Below, piece after piece: positions 48,570 through 61,872 of a stretch of 61,872 nucleotides of DNA. Made by a program: the position numbers and the translations under genes. The notes below the pieces were generated by a model that made no database searches, had not been told where the DNA came from, and worked only from the letters and a program-made list of their open reading frames with translations. Origin of the DNA: Lampropedia hyalina DSM 16112 (GTDB taxonomy: Bacteria > Pseudomonadota > Gammaproteobacteria > Burkholderiales > Burkholderiaceae_C); assembly GCF_900129055.1 (NCBI RefSeq), contig NZ_FQUZ01000021.1:1-61872 (forward strand), given 5' to 3'. Positions within the stretch are counted from its first letter, which is position 1; each line of letters starts with the position of its first letter.

Positions 48570-49889
48570 TCAGTGGTTTCCCGATGTGGCTGTCGCCTTG
48601 ATTGGCGGTTTGGCCAGCAGTGACTGGCTTGGAACCTCAATGCTGAAGCGGTAATGGCCATTCTCATCCGGACCTTGCAACTTCTCCCTGGGGATCATCA
48701 GAGGCGGCTGGTCTGCGATCTGAATCGTGGCACTGTGGGGTACGGCTCCTGCCGGTGTCTGAATGATTCCATTGATGGTGGTGCTGTCCCCTTCAGGTGG
48801 AATGATGAATTCATCGAGTAGGACGACTGGGACAGGTGGTGTGGCCGTTTCGCCAGCGGTAGTGTTGATGCCTGCTGCGAGCGTGGTGGTCTCGCTGGAT
48901 GGTAGTGGGGTTTCAGTGCCTACCGTGGTGGTTTCGGCGTGGTTTGAGGAGGTTTCTCTCGGCTCTTTTGAAAAAAAAACAGCAACGGCCACCACCACTA
49001 CTACTATTGCGACCCCTGCGGCTGCAACAGGCACTGTACTTGAGGTCTTTTTAGGTTCTGGGCGAACAGTAGATGGCTTCAGATTGGCTGTCGAATATTT
49101 TGGGGTTTTGGCAAGTGCACGAGTTTCAGGGAGTGGGACAGGTTTTGCCAAAGGAATCAGCCGGTTTCTCAGTGGCTTTGCCGATTGGCTGATCAGCAAG
49201 GCCAACGGAAGCTCATCCTGCATCAAGGCAAGCAAGTCATTTTCTGCGTATTCCTGCCCATCCACCAGATTCAGCAGGGCCGCAGAGCCTGTTTGTGTGC
49301 CGGACAGCAAATCCCGTATGCGTGCCATCCATGCCTGGGTTGCCTGGGGTGAATCCAGTTCTCCCAGCCACGAGCCTTGGGGCGCGTGGGCACTGATGGC
49401 GGTGTTGGCAGTGGCCGCAGGCAGTTTTTGCAGAAAGGTGGACAGCAGGTTTGCCGCAGTGTGAGCGGTTTCCAGGCTTCCTGGGTCTGCCAGCAACTGG
49501 TCGATATTGACCTGTGTTTCGTTGAAAACCTCATCCAGCAGGCTCGGCAGTGTGCTGCCCGTGCCCTGCGTGCTGAATGTGGTCAGTGCCTGCTGAAGCA
49601 GGCACAGCACTTTTTCCGCATCTTCTGCATCTTTCGCGCTGCCGCTGCTGGGGTCGGCCTCCAGCACGAGCGTGTAACGAATGGGCGTACTGACGCGGTC
49701 CCGGCGTCGGGATGGCAGTCCGCTGATATAGCCTCGCCATTGGCCAGGCCCTTGGGCTTGCACAATGATGGTCGGTTTCTCAAAAGAGGTGCCTTCTTCA
49801 TATGGTTTGCGCCACCACGGCTGGGCCGGTGTGGCCCCCAGAAATCCATAATCACGGCCATAACCACGGGTTTGAATGAATATTTTCAT
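48570..49889 (-). CDS. Single-pass membrane protein of the GTPase operon
   Basis: A 439-residue protein whose family I do not recognise. Residues 1-80 form a compact N-terminal domain (IFIQTRGYGRDYGFLGATP, IIVQAQGPGQWRGYISGLPS). Residues 85-250 are mostly helical. A strongly hydrophobic helix at about 286-307 (VPVAAAGVAIVVVVVAVAVF) is followed by a Thr/Glu-rich stalk and a small beta-rich C-terminal domain (DEFIIPPEGDSTTINGIIQT). Its start overlaps the upstream GTPase gene by four bases (ATGA), so it is translated with it. It could be the membrane-acting component of the system. Confidence 0.7.
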   Translation of the reverse strand: MKIFIQTRGYGRDYGFLGATPAQPWWRKPYEEGTSFEKPTIIVQAQGPGQWRGYISGLPSRRRDRVSTPIRYTLVLEADPSSGSAKDAEDAEKVLCLLQQALTTFSTQGTGSTLPSLLDEVFNETQVNIDQLLADPGSLETAHTAANLLSTFLQKLPAATANTAISAHAPQGSWLGELDSPQATQAWMARIRDLLSGTQTGSAALLNLVDGQEYAENDLLALMQDELPLALLISQSAKPLRNRLIPLAKPVPLPETRALAKTPKYSTANLKPSTVRPEPKKTSSTVPVAAAGVAIVVVVVAVAVFFSKEPRETSSNHAETTTVGTETPLPSSETTTLAAGINTTAGETATPPVPVVLLDEFIIPPEGDSTTINGIIQTPAGAVPHSATIQIADQPPLMIPREKLQGPDENGHYRFSIEVPSQSLLAKPPIKATATSGNH

Positions 49890-51054
49890 GAGGGCTTTTT
49901 CCCTGAATGAATGACGCGCATCCGGCTGCCCGGTTTTTTCTTGGTCAGCAGTTGCAGCACTTGGCCGATATTGCGGGCTTTCTGCATGGTAGCTTCTGCA
50001 TCGTTTTTCTTGAAACGAGCGTATTTTTCATCACTGGTCTCGTAGTCGAACAGCCATGTTCCGATGTCTTCTAGCAAGGTTTTGTTTTCTGCTGCTTGCC
50101 GGGCAGAGTATTGCGCCTCGATGGACTTTTCTTCCGCTGAGCGATGCAGCACTTTTTCTTTGAAAGACACGATCTGGTGACTGATGGAAATCAGCAGGCC
50201 ATCGGCTCCCTTGACCGATAGCTTGCCATCGCCGCGCACCTTGAAGGAGGGCGAGAACGTGTAACCGCCATCCACCTGTCTGTCCTCTCTCCATTCTGCT
50301 TCGACAAATTCCACGCAGCCAATCGTATCGACGGGCATGTACAGAATATCGGTGTGCCCTGCATTTTCTTCTTCAATGATGTCGGGAAGGGGGTGGTAAA
50401 TACTGGTGACGGCACGAAACAGTTCATCGGAGCGATCCGTGGAGCCGCCGTTGTCCGCGAAATAGCTTTCGCACTTGACAGGGCAAAGAATCAGCAATCC
50501 GGGTTCGTCGGTGTGCTGTGAGCGCGTTTTTGCCCATGCCCGCACGACATCTTCCACTTCCGCCACATTCAGGATGCCGGGAACGGCTTTTTTTTGCTTG
50601 CTGATCATGGCTTCCATGATGAGCGAGGCATCGATAATGACCAGCAATACTGTGCTTTGCTGAATGAACCGCACGCAACGTGCCCAGTCCCCTCCCTGGT
50701 CGTTCGCAAGCGAGGTGGGGCTCATCCATTTTCCAGGGAAGTCCAGCAGCTTGAGATTGACACCCTGTTCTTCGTCAGACTGGTTGTAACCCAGGTACAA
50801 CTGGAACTCGAATGCCTCCTGTGTGCCTTCCATTTTGCCGGCATCGAATTCCCGGGCATACAGTGAGCCGCGCAGGGCGTTGTCGTGCTGGCTGATGCGT
50901 GCGCGGGTTTTGCCATCCTTGCTTTGATGCTGACCGGGGAGCCTGCCAGCAAATCCTTGGCGTTGGCGAGAATGGAAGTCACCAGCGAGGTTTTGCCGAC
51001 CCGACTGGGGCCGACAATGCCGATCTTGAATTCCACGTCGTTTGTATCACTCAT
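49886..51054 (-). pseudogene. TRAFAC-type GTPase of the double-GTPase kind, one frameshift
   Basis: One gene broken by a single-base deletion. The first frame encodes a P-loop (IGIVGPSRVGKTSLVTSI, residues 12-29) and stops being sensible at SIKA. One base more (GCAAAGG in place of GCAAGG, near plus-strand 50919-50921) continues as KDGKTRARISQHDNALRGSL and on to LKLLDFPGKWM, the G3-like motif, then an open frame to 49886. The restored protein is about 389 residues. The family resembles the double-GTPase (DO-GTPase) group found in bacterial conflict operons. The deletion may be real or a sequencing error in an A-run. It lies 27 bases after the dynamin-like gene. Confidence 0.72.
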
Positions 51055-51081
51055 TCAATTTCTCCGTAATGGCTGTTTGGT

Positions 51082-53349
51082 TTATTGGGACAGGGTTTCC
51101 CGAATGGCTTTGGCCGCACTCTGGACGTTGGCAATGCGGGTATTGGCCGCTTCCAGTCCAGCAAAAATGCCGGGCCAGATGTCGTCGCGGTACGAGCGCG
51201 CCAGCCGGTGAAAGTGCGTCAGCGATTCGCCAGAGCGAATGAACGCATCGTCGAATTGCTCCACCGTGGCATGAATCACCAGGGCCGGAGCCAGGGCTTC
51301 TCCAATCAATGCTTTCTTGGCAGAATAAATGGCCTGCCGTGCCAAAGCGGTCATTTCCAGGAAAAGCTGTCCTGCGCCTTCTTCATCGGGGCGGCAGGCG
51401 TAGCGTACTTTTTGAACCTGGGGGTTTTCTGGATCGTCGTATTCCCATTCCAGGGCATCCAGTGACTGGCGAACCCGTGGGTGCAGTTGGGTGCGATAGT
51501 CCAGGCGCAGATCGAGCAAATCCCGGGTTGCCGATGCCAGGACCGTGCAAGGTTCGGGGGCTTCGTGGAGCAGTTTTTCCAGTTGCTCCAGCGCGGCCTT
51601 GCCCTCCTGTTCTGCGAGGAGTCTGCCGAGGTGGGGGCGCAGAATATCGAGGATTCTGGCCCACAGACCATCGGTCGATTGCTGGAAATAGCCATCAATT
51701 TCAGCGAACTTGTGGCTGATTTCCACGCGAATCCGGTTGCTTTCATGAATGCCGAATCCACCACTGCCTTTGTCGGCTTTCATGATTTTCAGGGCATCCT
51801 GGCACCAGGCTTCCTTGCCTTTGCCAAAACCGGCATCAATCCACGATTTGGCCGATTGGTAGGCGCACTCCACCGCTTCCACATAGCGATTGTCTTCTTC
51901 CTTGGCGCGGGCCTGTTTCTTGAGTTCGAGCAGGAAGTTGTGCAGTTCGCTGGCAATGTTTTTGTGCATCTCCCCTGTTCTCTTGTACAGGTCTTCGGCG
52001 GCACTGGCTGTGGGTGCATGCGTTCTGCCTGTGCGCAGTGCATTCTCCACGTCGTCCAGAAACTGTTGGATCTGCTCCTGTGTGGCGCGGTAGCGGCTGC
52101 GGGTTCCTTCCAGGATTTCGGCATCCATGACCGGCAGTCTTTCTGCCAGATGGCGCAATACCGGGTGCAGCACCTGTTCATAGACCGCTTCTTGCTTCAG
52201 GGCATTGGTCTCGTAAACCTGGTAATGGCGGTTGGGTTCGCCATCATTGACATTGCGCAGGACATCGCCGCGCAAGGCCGTAATGAGCGACTCTGTCGCT
52301 CCCCCTGTGTTGAGCACCAGCGAGACGAAATCACGCCGGTTCTTGATGAACCCACGCGCCTTGTCCAGCAGGTCGGCAGCAGCTCCGTCTTCCTTGCCCC
52401 AGTAGGCCATCCCTTCGACGGGACGCTTGACCATCAATACCAGGTCCACTTCATTTTGCAAGCCCGACAAGTGGTACTCCTCTGCGTTGGCTGCGAGTTC
52501 GCCCAGGCCCGGCAGGTCGATGATGCCCAGTTGCTCTACCTGGGCATAGGGAAACTGGCATTCGATGCGCACGTCGCGCACGGCCAGATAACGTCGATCG
52601 TTCTCCCCGGCTTCGATCTGGGTGGCGGTAGGGTAGGCGACATATTGGCGCAATTCATCCAGCGAAACGGTTTTTTCGCCGCCGGTGAGGTCTTGCTCAT
52701 AGGAGGGAAGAGCCAACTGCATTTCCCGCAGGCGGCGCAAGATGGTGATGGCACTGCTTTCCTGGCGTTTGCTTTCGGGCAGTTCCCGTTCCGATGGGGG
52801 GTAGGCGTATTGGCTGAAGTCTTCGAGCCGTTGCGGGGCCTGCGGCAACCCCAATTCTGTGTGGTAAGGCTGTAGCACGTCCTGACGGAAAGAGGCGTAG
52901 GTGTGCAGAATGAGGGTGGCCCGATGCTGCTGCTCGGAATGGAAAATGCGGCTGCGCACCGCTGTCACAGGCAAACCACTGCCTGTTGGAATCTGTTCGT
53001 CACCCAGGCCGGAAATGGCTTGCAACAGGGTGCTTTTCCCTACTCGGGCGCGACCGCTGACCCCGATATTGAGTGTGTTGCGGGAGAACCGGGCCTTGAT
53101 CTGGTTGAGGTTCTTCAGGGTTTCGGCAATATTGCTGTCAATCTGTTCGATGTGAAACCCTGAAAAATTCCTCTTGAGCGACTCGGAGGTTTCTGGGTGC
53201 GTTTTCAGTGTTTCAATCGCCTCCTCCAGTGCGCTGATCTGTCGATCCAGTTTTTTCCACTGCTCGATTTCTTTCTCGACCTTGGCAAGCTGTTCTTTGC
53301 GGGAATGGAGGATCGCTGTAATTTTCCGTTGTGCTTCAGAGTGTTCCAT
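51082..53349 (-). CDS. Dynamin-like large GTPase
   Basis: A 755-residue GTPase. An N-terminal coiled coil (residues 1-60: RKEQLAKVEKEIEQWKKLDR, ISALEEAIETLK) precedes the dynamin-type G domain: G1 VSGRARVGKSTLLQA (97-111), a G2 Thr in LPVTAVRSR, and G3 IIDLPGLGELAANA. The later G4 region (VSLVLNTGGATE) departs from the canonical TKxD. The long C-terminal part is helical, with no membrane helix seen, as in bacterial dynamins and GTPase-conflict proteins. It sits between the DUF1232 and second GTPase genes with 27-base gaps on both sides, indicating one operon. Confidence 0.85.
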   Translation of the reverse strand: MEHSEAQRKITAILHSRKEQLAKVEKEIEQWKKLDRQISALEEAIETLKTHPETSESLKRNFSGFHIEQIDSNIAETLKNLNQIKARFSRNTLNIGVSGRARVGKSTLLQAISGLGDEQIPTGSGLPVTAVRSRIFHSEQQHRATLILHTYASFRQDVLQPYHTELGLPQAPQRLEDFSQYAYPPSERELPESKRQESSAITILRRLREMQLALPSYEQDLTGGEKTVSLDELRQYVAYPTATQIEAGENDRRYLAVRDVRIECQFPYAQVEQLGIIDLPGLGELAANAEEYHLSGLQNEVDLVLMVKRPVEGMAYWGKEDGAAADLLDKARGFIKNRRDFVSLVLNTGGATESLITALRGDVLRNVNDGEPNRHYQVYETNALKQEAVYEQVLHPVLRHLAERLPVMDAEILEGTRSRYRATQEQIQQFLDDVENALRTGRTHAPTASAAEDLYKRTGEMHKNIASELHNFLLELKKQARAKEEDNRYVEAVECAYQSAKSWIDAGFGKGKEAWCQDALKIMKADKGSGGFGIHESNRIRVEISHKFAEIDGYFQQSTDGLWARILDILRPHLGRLLAEQEGKAALEQLEKLLHEAPEPCTVLASATRDLLDLRLDYRTQLHPRVRQSLDALEWEYDDPENPQVQKVRYACRPDEEGAGQLFLEMTALARQAIYSAKKALIGEALAPALVIHATVEQFDDAFIRSGESLTHFHRLARSYRDDIWPGIFAGLEAANTRIANVQSAAKAIRETLSQ

Positions 53350-53376
53350 GAATGTATTCCTTGCAGTTGGGGTATG

Positions 53377-53706
53377 TCAGTTGAACCATTGGCGCATTTT
53401 CTGGGCGGTTTCTTCCTTGATCTCTTCGGTCACATGTGCCGACACAGTGGCCAGTGCTGCGGCCAGCGCGCCCAGGTCATCGGTGAAGCCTGCGACGGGG
53501 AGGACATCGGGGATGGCATCGATGGGCAGGATGAAGTAGGCCAATGCGCCGTAGATGGTGGTTTTCGCCCAGGTGGGGGTTTTGGCATCCTGCGCGGTGT
53601 AGTAGAGCCAGAGTGCTTTCTCGATGACTTCCTTGCCCGCACTTTGGCCGAAGTTCTTGACTTTGTCCCAGAAATTGGTGTCGCTGTAGTGTTCGGTGGT
53701 GTTCAC
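53377..53706 (-). CDS. DUF1232 (YkvA-like) membrane-associated protein
   Basis: A 109-residue protein with the DUF1232 core KTTIYGALAYFILPIDAIPD followed by VLPVAGFTDDLGALAAALAT. This short hydrophobic module, with its conserved PxDxxPD-type motif, is common and poorly understood. The start is GTG, supported by an AAAGGAG ribosome-binding site. It is the first gene of the four-gene GTPase operon and may link the GTPases to the membrane. Confidence 0.88.
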   Translation of the reverse strand: MNTTEHYSDTNFWDKVKNFGQSAGKEVIEKALWLYYTAQDAKTPTWAKTTIYGALAYFILPIDAIPDVLPVAGFTDDLGALAAALATVSAHVTEEIKEETAQKMRQWFN

Positions 53707-56184: not shown

Positions 56185-57290
56185 ATGAAAAAATTTTACT
56201 GTTGTATTATGTTTTTTTAACATCTTTGTGTTATGCAGATGGATGGCTAGAATCAGTGGAGCCAGATGCTTATTCCGGGTGGGCATGTGAGTTTGGTAAT
56301 TCCGGTTATGTTGGAATTCATGTGTGGCGAGATGATGGTTTGTTTTTGGGGGGTGGTAATGCTGCTCTAAATCGTGAGGATGCGGTTAAGAACGCATGTA
56401 ATAGTGAACATAGCTCACATGGGTTTAATTTGAAATTCGATTTGCCGAATCATGTTTATGATGGAAATTACCATTCTGTGAGTGTTTATGCGATATTTGA
56501 TGATGGAAGTAATGAGTTATTGGGGAATTCTCCAGTCAATATTTTATTTGTTGATAAAAGTATCCCTCCTAGGCCAACGAGAATAGGGATGGTTGTAGGT
56601 AGAGATTTAGATTATCCGTATCCATTATCAATTCAGGGGCATGTTGGAATATGGGATGGATATAGGGTTATAGAGGTTTTTAATGATAATAGTAATAGAA
56701 AAAACAGGGTCCAGAAAATATCGTGGGAAGAGTTTTCGCGAGAGACCAAGGCTTGGCCTAATGTGAATAAAGATCTGCCAGATTATTATATATCAACTTG
56801 TATTAAGGAGTATTGTGCTGAAAATCCACTGGATTATGAAGAGACTAGATCTCGTTTGAAAGTGTATAAGGCTATTATAAAGAGGGCGGAGCAGATTATG
56901 GTGATTGGGGCTTCGTATACATATTCGGCTACACCAACGCCAGCAAAACCTGGAACTTTGGTTCCAGTAATAAATCCGAAATGTTACTCTGGGCCATTTT
57001 CGACTACATCAGGAGGTGGCGTAGCTGGGAACTCGAGTTCTTGTATTATTGGGTACAAGGAAAATTTAAAACCTATTCCTGGTGTATATAGATGTGATTC
57101 GTTTGTAGTAGATGCTTACGCTTCTACTGCGCAAACTAGATATGCACTTTCGTCTTTTCAAACATCTCTTTCTTTTTATAATAATCAAAGAAAACAGCAG
57201 GAAAGTTGGCAAAAAAATATGGTTGAGTTGGCAAATATGTTTCGTACACCAAACCGAATCTATGGAAAAATAAAGGATGGAATGTGGTGA
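56185..57290 (+). CDS. Permuted NlpC/P60-like secreted hydrolase with frameshift in the signal peptide
   Basis: The main open frame runs 56202-57290. A good ribosome-binding site (GAGGT) precedes an ATG at 56185 whose frame meets TAA after a run of seven Ts; eight Ts would join MKKFYCCIMFF to LTSLCYA, a normal signal peptide. After it comes a GWACEFGNSGYVGIHVWRDD domain, common in secreted proteins. A papain-like pair in permuted order follows: His in GHVGIWDGYRVIEVFND (His 147 in the open frame) and Cys in YRCDSFVVDAYAS (Cys 298). The enzyme could cut peptidoglycan peptides or other amides. Very AT-rich, so acquired. The next gene overlaps it. Confidence 0.65.
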
Positions 57291-58255
57291 AAAAATTTTT
57301 GTTTATTCTTTTGTTTATTCTTTTGTTTATTTATTCTTATGAAAAATATAATAATATTTTGGCAGATGATTTTGGTGATGGCTCTTTGTTGAGTGATGTA
57401 GAAAGTAATTATAAAGAAAATAGTGGGTTTAAATTGAAATATAATTCAAGTTCATATAGGAAATTGATTGATGATTTGCAGGCTGAAGGTGATGATTTTG
57501 AGTTGGAGAGTATTGTTTATAGGCATCTTGCCAGCAAGGTTAATTTGTCTGATGAAAGGAAGAGTGATTTTGCAAATGAATTAAAATATATTATATATTC
57601 GGATTTTCCTGATAGTGCTAAAGGTGCTGCTATTGTTGCATATTCAAGATTGGGGAGGTATGGTGATTTGCATGAGGTTTTAAGGTATGGGAAAAATAAC
57701 CATCTGATTTCTGAGGATGATTACTATGGGGAGTTGGTTCAAATGATTCCAACTGGTTTTTATGAGAAAGATGATGAAATAATTAATGAATTGATTGTTG
57801 CTTCTAATGATTTTGGGAATAATGTATTGATGAGTCAGTTGTCTGGAAATCCTGCTGTATTTTTGTACTTGACAGATATGCAGAAAAAAATATTGCATCA
57901 ATATATTTTTTCCCATAAGCCTGAATTGCCTCAGAATTTTTCTGAGCTTGGATTGCTTGATGCTATTCGATATGAAAAATGGCTGGGTTCGCTTTTTAAT
58001 ACATCCATTGAGTCAATGGAAGGGGATGTTTTTTTGAATTATGTTTCTGATTTTTATGTGAATGGATTTAGTGATCCTAGAGATGCGGTTTTATTGGGGC
58101 ATGCTGATTTTATTGATGAGATTCGTGGTAAAAATCCCGAGTTGTTTAATATGTTGGTGAAAACTGTGGAGAAGTATTATGATAGTTATTCAAATAATAT
58201 TTTGGCCGAATACTTGGTTCGAGAATTTAAAGAGGAAAATGTGTTACTCCATTAG
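57287..58255 (+). CDS. Membrane-anchored partner protein of the AT-rich pair
   Basis: A protein of about 322 residues that I cannot assign to a family. An N-terminal hydrophobic helix (FLFILLFILLFIYSY) anchors or exports it. The rest is acidic and helical, with repeat-like pairs (DFELESIVYRHLASKV, SAKGAAIVAYSRLGRYGDL, DEIINELIVASNDFGNNV), consistent with an alpha-helical repeat fold. The start is GTG at 57287 (or 57284), overlapping the stop of the enzyme gene, so translation is coupled. Codon use is as AT-rich as in that gene. An immunity or accessory role is possible. Confidence 0.6.
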   Translation: MKKFLFILLFILLFIYSYEKYNNILADDFGDGSLLSDVESNYKENSGFKLKYNSSSYRKLIDDLQAEGDDFELESIVYRHLASKVNLSDERKSDFANELKYIIYSDFPDSAKGAAIVAYSRLGRYGDLHEVLRYGKNNHLISEDDYYGELVQMIPTGFYEKDDEIINELIVASNDFGNNVLMSQLSGNPAVFLYLTDMQKKILHQYIFSHKPELPQNFSELGLLDAIRYEKWLGSLFNTSIESMEGDVFLNYVSDFYVNGFSDPRDAVLLGHADFIDEIRGKNPELFNMLVKTVEKYYDSYSNNILAEYLVREFKEENVLLH

Positions 58256-60453: not shown

Positions 60454-61514
60454 CTATGCCGTCGCGGTAATCATGTGGTGTGGAATGCCCTTGGTGTCCT
60501 TGAAGAACTGGGGGGCCAGTGAACCGGCCACCATCGCAATCGCAGCAGCCAGCACGCCCACCAGTTGCGGTGGGAAGTGCTCGCTGAAGTCGCCCCACAG
60601 CGAGAAGAAGCCCCACACGACAATGCCGAAAACCACCGAGAGAATCGCACCCTGTGTGGTGGCGCGCTTCCAGTACAGGCCGAAGACCAGCGGCACGAAT
60701 GCGCCCACCAGTGGCAACTGGTAGGCTTCGGCCACCAGGTCGTAGATGGATTTGCCTTCCATCGTGATGGCATACACCAGCACCATCACGGTGAAGACCA
60801 GCACCGAAATGCGCGTGGCCTTGAGGGTTTGCGCATCGTTCAGGCCGGGCTTGATGTTGCGCAGCACGTTCTCCATGAAGGTGGTGGACGGGGCCAGCAG
60901 CGTGGCCGAGGCGGTGGACATGATGGCCGACAGCAGCGCGCCAAAGAACAGCACCTGAAGCGCGAAGGGCATGTGCTCCAGCACCAGCGTGGGCAGGATG
61001 TACTGCGGATCATCGGCCAGCATGGTGGCCGATTCCTGCGGCATCACCAGAATGGCGGCCATCACGATGAACATGGGCACGAAGCCAAAGATGATGTAGA
61101 AAATACCGCCAATCACCGGCCCCCGGCTGGCGGCTTCGGCACTGTTGGCGGCCATGACGCGCTGGAACACGTCCTGCTGCGGAATGGAGCCGAGCATCAT
61201 GGTGATGAGCGAGGCCACGAAGAACATCCAGGCCTTGCCGTCGCCCCATTCGGGGAACAGTTGCAGCTTGCCTTCGGTGGCGGCGTAGTCAATGACCCGC
61301 CCTGCGCCCCCGGCCAGATCGGCGGCAAACCAGGCCACCGCCAGCAGGCCGATGACGATCACCGTCATCTGCACCAGATCGGTGAAGGCCACCGACCACA
61401 GGCCGCCGAACAGCGTATAGACCAGCACCACTGCGGTGCCGATCATCATGCCGGCAACGAAGGAAATCTGCCCACCCGATAGCATGTTGAACACCAGCCC
61501 CAGGGCCGTCACCT
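60454..61514 (-). CDS. Sodium:solute symporter, N-terminally truncated by IS
   Basis: About 353 residues of the C-terminal part of an SSS-family (SLC5-like) symporter. Typical segments are GTAVVLVYTLFGGLWSVAFT, DLVQMTVIVIGLLAVAWFA, SIPQQDVFQRVMAANSAEAA, FGALLSAIMSTASATLLAPS and GLYWKRATTQGAILSVVFGI. About nine membrane helices remain; the first four or five, including much of the sodium site, have been removed by the IS3 copy ending at 61515. The frame begins with IS-derived MWGNF at 61530. Almost certainly non-functional unless a rescue fusion acts. Confidence 0.88.
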
Positions 61515-61872
61515 TGAAGTTCCCCCACATTACCGGAGGGTATAGAACACTGGATCGGCCATTTCTGGCGTTGGTTTGGAAACAGATTTCTTGCTGCCTT
61601 TCCTCCTTTTTTCAAACTCTACAGGCGACAGGTAACCGATGCCTGAATGCAGCCGGTGCGGGTTGTACCAGCCCTCGATCCAGCTAAAGATGTCGCGCTT
61701 GGCTCCTGCCTTTGTTGGCCAACTTCTCCTGTCAATCAACTCACATTCCAGACTCGCAAAAAAGCTCTCAGCCATGGCGTTGTCGTAGGCATCACCCACC
61801 GTCCCCATGGAGGGCGTTACCTTCATTTCTTTGCAACGCTGGCCAAACGCCAAGCTGGTGTATTGGCTGCCC
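61515..61872 (-). mobile_element. IS3-family insertion sequence, right-end fragment (second copy)
   Basis: An inverted copy of the element at 1-330, with 28 further bases inward. The tip at 61515 reads TGAAGTTCCCCC inward. It has inserted in the sodium:solute symporter gene. The window ends inside it. Confidence 0.88.
61530..61872 (-). CDS. IS3-family transposase OrfB, C-terminal fragment
   Basis: The frame is open to the window edge. GSQYTSLAFGQRC lies just after the second catalytic Asp of the DDE domain, and YDNAMAESFFASLE carries the catalytic Glu. WYNPHRLHSGIGYLSPVEFE follows. The shared part is nearly identical to the left-end copy, so both moved recently. Confidence 0.9.
   Translation of the reverse strand, partial: GSQYTSLAFGQRCKEMKVTPSMGTVGDAYDNAMAESFFASLECELIDRRSWPTKAGAKRDIFSWIEGWYNPHRLHSGIGYLSPVEFEKRRKGSKKSVSKPTPEMADPVFYTLR

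Follow-up and report, generated by a model that had tools for sequence, protein, structure and literature searches.

A recurrent dynamin, GTPase and membrane-protein trio as a candidate mobile conflict module in bacteria

Introduction

Eleos (LeoA/LeoBC) is a dynamin defence system. A second dynamin, DynA of Bacillus subtilis, is described in excerpts of one report as protecting populations from phage via delayed lysis, and is linked there to membrane surveillance against antibiotics as well (PMC8844932). GTPases of another kind are the subject of Kaur et al. (2020), excerpts of which give systems in which DO-GTPases are followed by a GAP1 protein, at times with C-terminal transmembrane segments; such segments often form the end of N2-type GAP1 partners, sometimes with extracellular domains added, and the systems are nearly absent from cyanobacteria (PMC7159879). 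Here we analyse a 61,872-nucleotide stretch of Lampropedia hyalina DSM 16112 (NZ_FQUZ01000021.1; “the window” hereafter means this whole stretch, which is a complete contig within a 3.18-Mb genome of 58 contigs). On its minus strand an operon (53706-48570) encodes a DUF1232 protein, a dynamin-like GTPase, a second GTPase and a membrane protein, in that order; the last three genes form the trio considered below.

The trio resembles the DO-GTPase/GAP1 systems, as excerpted, in two respects: a GTPase that appears to be distantly of the DO-GTPase2 type is directly followed by a partner protein, and the unit is mobile, with variable extra genes. It differs in being led by a dynamin-like GTPase; the word “dynamin” never occurs in the excerpts of PMC7159879. 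With Eleos it shares a dynamin-like GTPase; the partners of this protein, one anchored and the other DO-GTPase2-like, set it apart from Eleos. DynA is likened to the trio by its reported function, and the excerpts on DynA mention no operon in which it is joined by a switch GTPase and an anchored partner. Our search of one literature library returned nothing joining a DO-GTPase with a dynamin, a dynamin with a DUF1232 operon, or DUF1232 with phage defense.

Results

Dynamin loci were readable at 14 sites, window included, and 12 of these entered the tree; L008 and L053 were left out because their dynamins are in pieces or short. The window dynamin belongs to a clade of five with support of 100/100, together with those of L002, L003, L049 (genome G480) and L004 (Streptomyces). 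The tree program flagged long branches on the side opposite the clade. All five clade loci carry the dynamin, the second GTPase and the membrane protein in the same order, with the third gene in two copies in G480, and this recurrence is beyond chance. A GTPase profile built from L002, L003 and L004 recognised a neighbouring GTPase at three of the other nine dynamin loci (L005-L009 and L050-L053), with E-values of 2.8e-15 for L005, 1.8e-15 for L051 and 4.4e-21 for L050, and a more distant version of the trio is found in Nonomuraea and on two cyanobacterial plasmids. When plasmid records were searched for the second GTPase itself (queries L004, L005 and L002), four held it, all with a dynamin adjoining.

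The trio is sporadic and rare. A single-protein search found the dynamin in 1 of 60 related genomes and a four-row dynamin profile found it in 1 of 398 sampled from the phylum, each time only in the genome of the window; a profile of the membrane protein likewise detected only this genome among 369 of the class. Because no other of the 60 genomes has the dynamin, the comparison of neighbourhoods among close relatives envisaged in a preliminary description of the window, made from the sequence alone, came out empty. In the species-genome collection, a pattern scan that detects close relatives only found the dynamin in Gluconobacter vitians (L002, 55% identity) and Neokomagataea anthophila (L003, 51%), and the dynamin profile matched 2 of 200 genomes of the latter's family, N. 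anthophila itself and G480 (locus L049). Among 72,556 plasmid records ten encode the dynamin: those of Streptomyces aurantiacus (L004; 42% identity over 98% of the query), Nonomuraea (38% over 32%) and eight cyanobacteria (26-32% over 30-96%). This sampling is weighted to plasmids and a few genome groups.

On the evidence of sequence, the trio moves horizontally between lineages, at unrelated sites. Copies lie on Streptomyces and cyanobacterial plasmids, and the Streptomyces plasmid copy groups with the proteobacterial ones in the tree. In N. anthophila the trio occupies 4.7 kb between two convergent genes that, by their sequences, we take to be cobJ and cobK. The cobJ locus was obtained from 8 of the 21 genomes searched, that of the N. 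anthophila trio among them, and in five of the other seven (L058-L062) the cobJ and cobK matches are 11-51 bp apart, which is the empty site. At L063 the distance is ~830 bp, and at L057 (G505, 1-707) the contig stops 707 bp beyond cobJ, without cobK. The reading frames beside cobJ at L057 look like those of a transposase, so the spot on the cobJ side may be a repeated target.

The defence context is clearest in G480, where the trio (C1:790,433-795,910) lies between SngA and SngB/SngC with a few other open reading frames (ORFs) in between, and a Fic protein of a candidate defence family follows SngC (Table 1). Shango (SngABC) is a validated anti-phage system; its proteins are different from those of the trio, of which it is a neighbour and not a relative. 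On the Streptomyces plasmid an nSTAND1-WD40 protein is encoded ~1.3 kb past the third gene, and the Gluconobacter trio is on a contig just 6 kb long.

The second GTPase appears to be distantly related to DO-GTPase2. Measured against the Pfam cut-off for DO-GTPase1 and DO-GTPase2 of 27 bits, the DO-GTPase2 matches of L005 (35.9 bits) and L051 (36.4 bits) lie above it, and those of L002 (21.5), L049 (20.2), L004 (14.0) and the window's P-loop piece (11.5) lie below; there was no DO-GTPase2 match for L003 or for the window's second piece. DO-GTPase2 was found at E up to 0.001 in 19 of the 398 phylum genomes, in three of them above the cut-off, and no trio profile matched the fetched phylum loci at E up to 0.01. 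The window's own genome is missing from these 19 because its gene is split. The GPSRVGKTS P-loop sits on one ORF and the rest of the conserved GTPase on another, in a different frame (Table 1); from the first start to the last stop the gene measures 1169 nt, which is not divisible by three, and similarity to intact relatives switches frame near 50,920. In the four clade relatives the second GTPase is a single ORF of 381-388 amino acids (aa). Of the smaller GTPase in the preliminary description, the P-loop and the start at 51054 therefore stand, and the single intact gene, and with it the set of four intact genes, gives way to a gene broken across two ORFs.

Three canonical DO-GTPase/GAP1 systems (G376, G142 and G103), all of the N1 type, served as controls. 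They consist of tandem DO-GTPases followed by GAP1-N1, and the models detected GAP1-N1 in 3/3 (1.6e-19 or better), DO-GTPase1 in 3/3 and GASH in 2/2. By comparison, none of the third proteins of the window, L002, L003, L004 and L005 matched a GAP1 model at E up to 1, and no GASH or FNIII match was found among the proteins of the window operon. The Walker B of the control DO-GTPase1 proteins is D-x-x-G-E (DYGGE in L096) and that of the clade D-[FY]-P-G-[GK]: the window has DFPGK, L002, L003 and L049 have DFPGG, and L004 has DYPGG; outside the clade, L050 has DYPGK. Thus the Walker-B glutamate, read as DxxGE, is absent from the dynamin clade, unlike in DO-GTPase/GAP1 systems, and present in cyanobacterial L005 and L051 (DPSGE). 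The trio is best read as lying near, but outside, the DO-GTPase/GAP1 systems described to date.

The window's third protein has one hydrophobic segment (residues 288-306 of 439) and no Pfam family above the cut-off, as expected of the single-pass membrane protein of no known family that had been proposed. A hydrophobic segment behind the conserved part was present in seven of the eight third proteins tested, with a second, borderline one in L003; the segment is missing from one of the two copies in G480. Only the window's protein continues for 133 residues past the transmembrane segment. The third-protein profile missed the third proteins of L005, L051 and L050, of which that of L050 was recognised by alignment. 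That of L005, to which the L051 protein is 99.7% identical, reached a profile-comparison score of 24.09, a value attained by 0 of 200 letter shuffles, with an hhalign probability of 2.6-9.3%; its kinship to the clade proteins is weakly suggested. Comparison with a family-less 992-aa protein of a Stanieria plasmid was negative (E 0.29; score 13.44). We rejected the idea that the third protein is a diverged GAP1: the N-termini look alike by eye, and the score of 13.75 was matched by 23 of 100 column shuffles. A weak match of the window's membrane protein to NCBIfam SrfA_fam (E 0.071; 12.5 bits, cut-off 150) recalls SrfABC; it spans residues 209-420, outside the conserved N-terminus, and the other Srf models gave no match at E up to 1.

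The window dynamin carries a Dynamin_N G domain (PF00350) at 2.5e-6 and 28.1 bits, barely above the cut-off of 27, which agrees with its first identification as a 755-residue dynamin-like GTPase. It has 43-56% identity to its clade relatives and no transmembrane segment predicted from hydropathy. Dynamins usually carry an [NT]KxD motif, at the usual position of which the window protein has LVLNTGG. The PADLOC LeoBC model of Eleos matches it weakly (3.2e-6, residues 32-123); there was no LeoA match, and for the Streptomyces dynamin the search up to E 0.01 gave no LeoBC match either. No PDB dynamin chain matched by sequence, and none of the three trio profiles found a convincing relative among solved structures.

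Several of the distant dynamins have settings of their own. The relative on a Pseudanabaena plasmid (L008, 7001-10368) is annotated in two pieces and that on an Anabaena plasmid (L053, 6983-7891) is one short gene; both are perhaps decaying copies. On two Calothrix plasmids (L006, 6938-9313; L052, 6905-9313) the second GTPase is lacking, and the genes near the dynamin include some with the annotation filamentous haemagglutinin-like. The dynamin on a plasmid of Nostoc sp. ATCC 53789 (L009, 1-9631) lies opposite a cluster that includes a vWA protein as well as a DO-GTPase1 protein (2e-10). On the Stanieria plasmid (L007, 1652-14898) the dynamin is followed by a DO-GTPase1-like protein (1.6e-5, below the cut-off) and then by the 992-aa protein, and an annotated NB-ARC protein is encoded ~3 kb upstream.

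Discussion

Context and precedent suggest a role in defence, and on balance we favour, with modest confidence, a horizontally mobile, membrane-linked GTPase conflict module that is most likely anti-phage. We propose more tentatively, as possible rather than probable, that the trio represents an undescribed type of immunity, in which the dynamin is the effector and a DO-GTPase-like switch, sitting on a membrane-anchored adaptor of unclassified family, gates it; such a system would parallel in function, with no claim of common descent, the antiviral GTPases of the dynamin family in animals. The third protein would be anchored in the inner membrane, its conserved N-terminal domain facing the cytosol, where it would recruit the second GTPase, a putative nucleotide-controlled switch. 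An infection signal would flip this switch, and the soluble dynamin would be recruited to the membrane, oligomerise and remodel it. The dynamin might then reinforce the membrane so that lysis is delayed, as reported for DynA, or it might damage the membrane and abort infection. Since DynA is reported, in the excerpts, to delay lysis after phage infection, a dynamin can protect in the former way. On this view the window would have two variable add-ons, its DUF1232 gene and the additional C-terminal stretch of its membrane protein.

A number of observations weigh against a conflict module. The defence context is clear at only one of the five clade loci: no defence neighbour was recognised beside the window copy or beside the Neokomagataea trio, the site of which is a cobalamin cluster. 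PADLOC models, at E up to 0.01, matched neither the second GTPase nor the third protein, and the LeoBC matches of the dynamins, unlike Eleos, span just ~90-150 residues. No dynamin relative was found among 50,697 phage records, and none of the 63 stretches of viral contigs that fit the pattern encodes one. The profile did not find the second GTPase at six of the nine more distant dynamin loci, so dynamin and GTPase are separable. Finally, the window operon as assembled is without an intact second GTPase, and this copy may be inactive. The GTPase system for defence or envelope stress that was first proposed has on its side the linkage in 5/5 clade loci, the mobility, the Shango locus and the DO-GTPase kinship, and its linkage is looser among the distant dynamins. 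As to the scattering of homologues that was named as an argument against it, the partners are neighbours at every clade locus, and by profile the second GTPase is missing from the six distant ones.

An unlikely alternative, in our estimate, is that the trio is a mobile module for membrane maintenance or envelope stress, in which the anchored protein senses damage, the second GTPase controls loading, and the dynamin mends the inner membrane, or changes its shape, once antimicrobials or solvents have damaged it, with phage incidental. The anchored partner, which in the window has its 133 residues beyond the membrane segment, is consistent with such a role, as are the excerpted link of DynA to membrane surveillance and the unrelated, non-defence genes that adjoin the plasmid relatives of DUF1232 in the five cases inspected; the sporadic, mobile distribution and the Shango locus of G480 nevertheless fit conflict better than housekeeping. 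We consider it more improbable still that the trio is an addiction or plasmid-borne selfish module serving its mobile element, through maintenance or the exclusion of rivals, with no anti-phage benefit. The dynamin is indeed held by ten plasmid records, and on two cyanobacterial plasmids a TrsK-like transfer gene lies near the trio, at distances between a few hundred bases and 2 kb, but for four of the five clade copies the source genome or contig is not known to be a plasmid, and we recognised no toxin-antitoxin pair in the trio.

A different question is whether the operon of the window is a decaying remnant, its second GTPase interrupted and its remainder being lost, which would be compatible with a conflict module. 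One conserved protein lies in two frames across those 1169 nt; the other three genes are intact, however, and an error of assembly can produce one local change of frame. We regard decay as somewhat unlikely. If the trio is a defence module, it would add to the few dynamins reported in bacterial immunity, and with it would come an anchored adaptor that belongs to no family and a switch of the DO-GTPase-like kind. Intact versions in G. vitians and N. anthophila (Acetobacteraceae) and on a Streptomyces plasmid make the conflict-module proposal directly testable.

Additional Observations

Table 1. Features of the window operon and defence genes around the G480 trio
Feature	Coordinates	Strand	Evidence
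DUF1232 (YkvA-like) gene, 109 aa, GTG start; probable local accessory	53377..53706	-	Pfam DUF1232 1.3e-14; PHROG 14750 1.1e-40
Dynamin-like GTPase, 755 aa	51082..53349	-	Dynamin_N 2.5e-6, residues 95-307; hydropathy
Second GTPase, first piece: start codon, P-loop; departs from conserved frame at ~50,920	50722..51054	-	ORF list, frames, weak P-loop matches, alignment of intact relatives
Second GTPase, second piece: remainder from switch region DFPGK on, other frame	49886..50833	-	Alignments A2 and A5, 46-49% identity; ORF list
Third gene of the trio (439 aa), with a conserved N-terminal domain and one transmembrane segment	48570..49889	-	Alignment A6; hydropathy
SngA, G480	783,076-785,289		PADLOC 2.6e-66
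SngB, G480	797,111-798,442		PADLOC 3.2e-178
SngC, G480	798,455-800,773		PADLOC 2.6e-237
Fic protein, candidate defence family PDC-S24, G480, beyond SngC	800,987-802,597		PADLOC 8.2e-143

The DUF1232 gene is best seen, from its distribution, as a local accessory. Its Pfam match (1.3e-14) upholds the family assignment of the preliminary description, and it is the sole DUF1232 match in its own genome. As a component of the system, which is how it had been described, it was rejected for its absence from the 13 other dynamin loci, where tblastn over 15 stretches gave a single match with an E-value of 0.82. By tblastn, a homologue is present in 1 of 50,697 phage records. Homologues were also found in 13 plasmid records, and in the five of these that were inspected no annotated dynamin or GTPase adjoins; the Halomonas copy adjoins a 683-aa protein that by eye looks like a multi-pass membrane protein.

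The minus-strand operon has the coordinates and the junctions (27 bp, 27 bp and then a 4-bp overlap) originally assigned to it. By Pfam, the operon is flanked by a PP-loop-domain gene, the name of which, ttcA, comes from the preliminary description, and by a transketolase-domain gene (tkt). An insertion between these two as core genes had been proposed. ttcA is present in 20 of the 22 genomes searched, that of the window counted, and tkt lies beside it in none of 19 other genomes (stretches of up to 1.5 kb, shorter at contig ends); in G003, the sole congener of nine with both genes on one contig, they are ~20 kb apart. We dropped the ttcA-tkt junction as an empty insertion site, as it is not conserved in other genomes; because the two genes are not neighbours elsewhere, an insertion there cannot be shown.

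The operon has a guanine-plus-cytosine (G+C) content of 56.0%, against a mean of 61.1% (standard deviation 3.5) in 87 overlapping segments of equal length, a difference of ~1.5 standard deviations and a weak sign. Its ends hold just short, imperfect repeat matches. Promoter-like sites (4, against 2.5 in shuffles) and terminator-like sites (8, against 8.6) were uninformative. Just past tkt, at 56202-58255 of the window, two adjacent plus-strand ORFs of 362 and 323 aa occupy a stretch of 35% G+C and match no Pfam family at E up to 0.01; it looks like a separate foreign insert. At the contig end (61530-61872) is a fragment that we take to be an IS3-type transposase, abutted by a solute-symporter-like ORF at 60454-61530.

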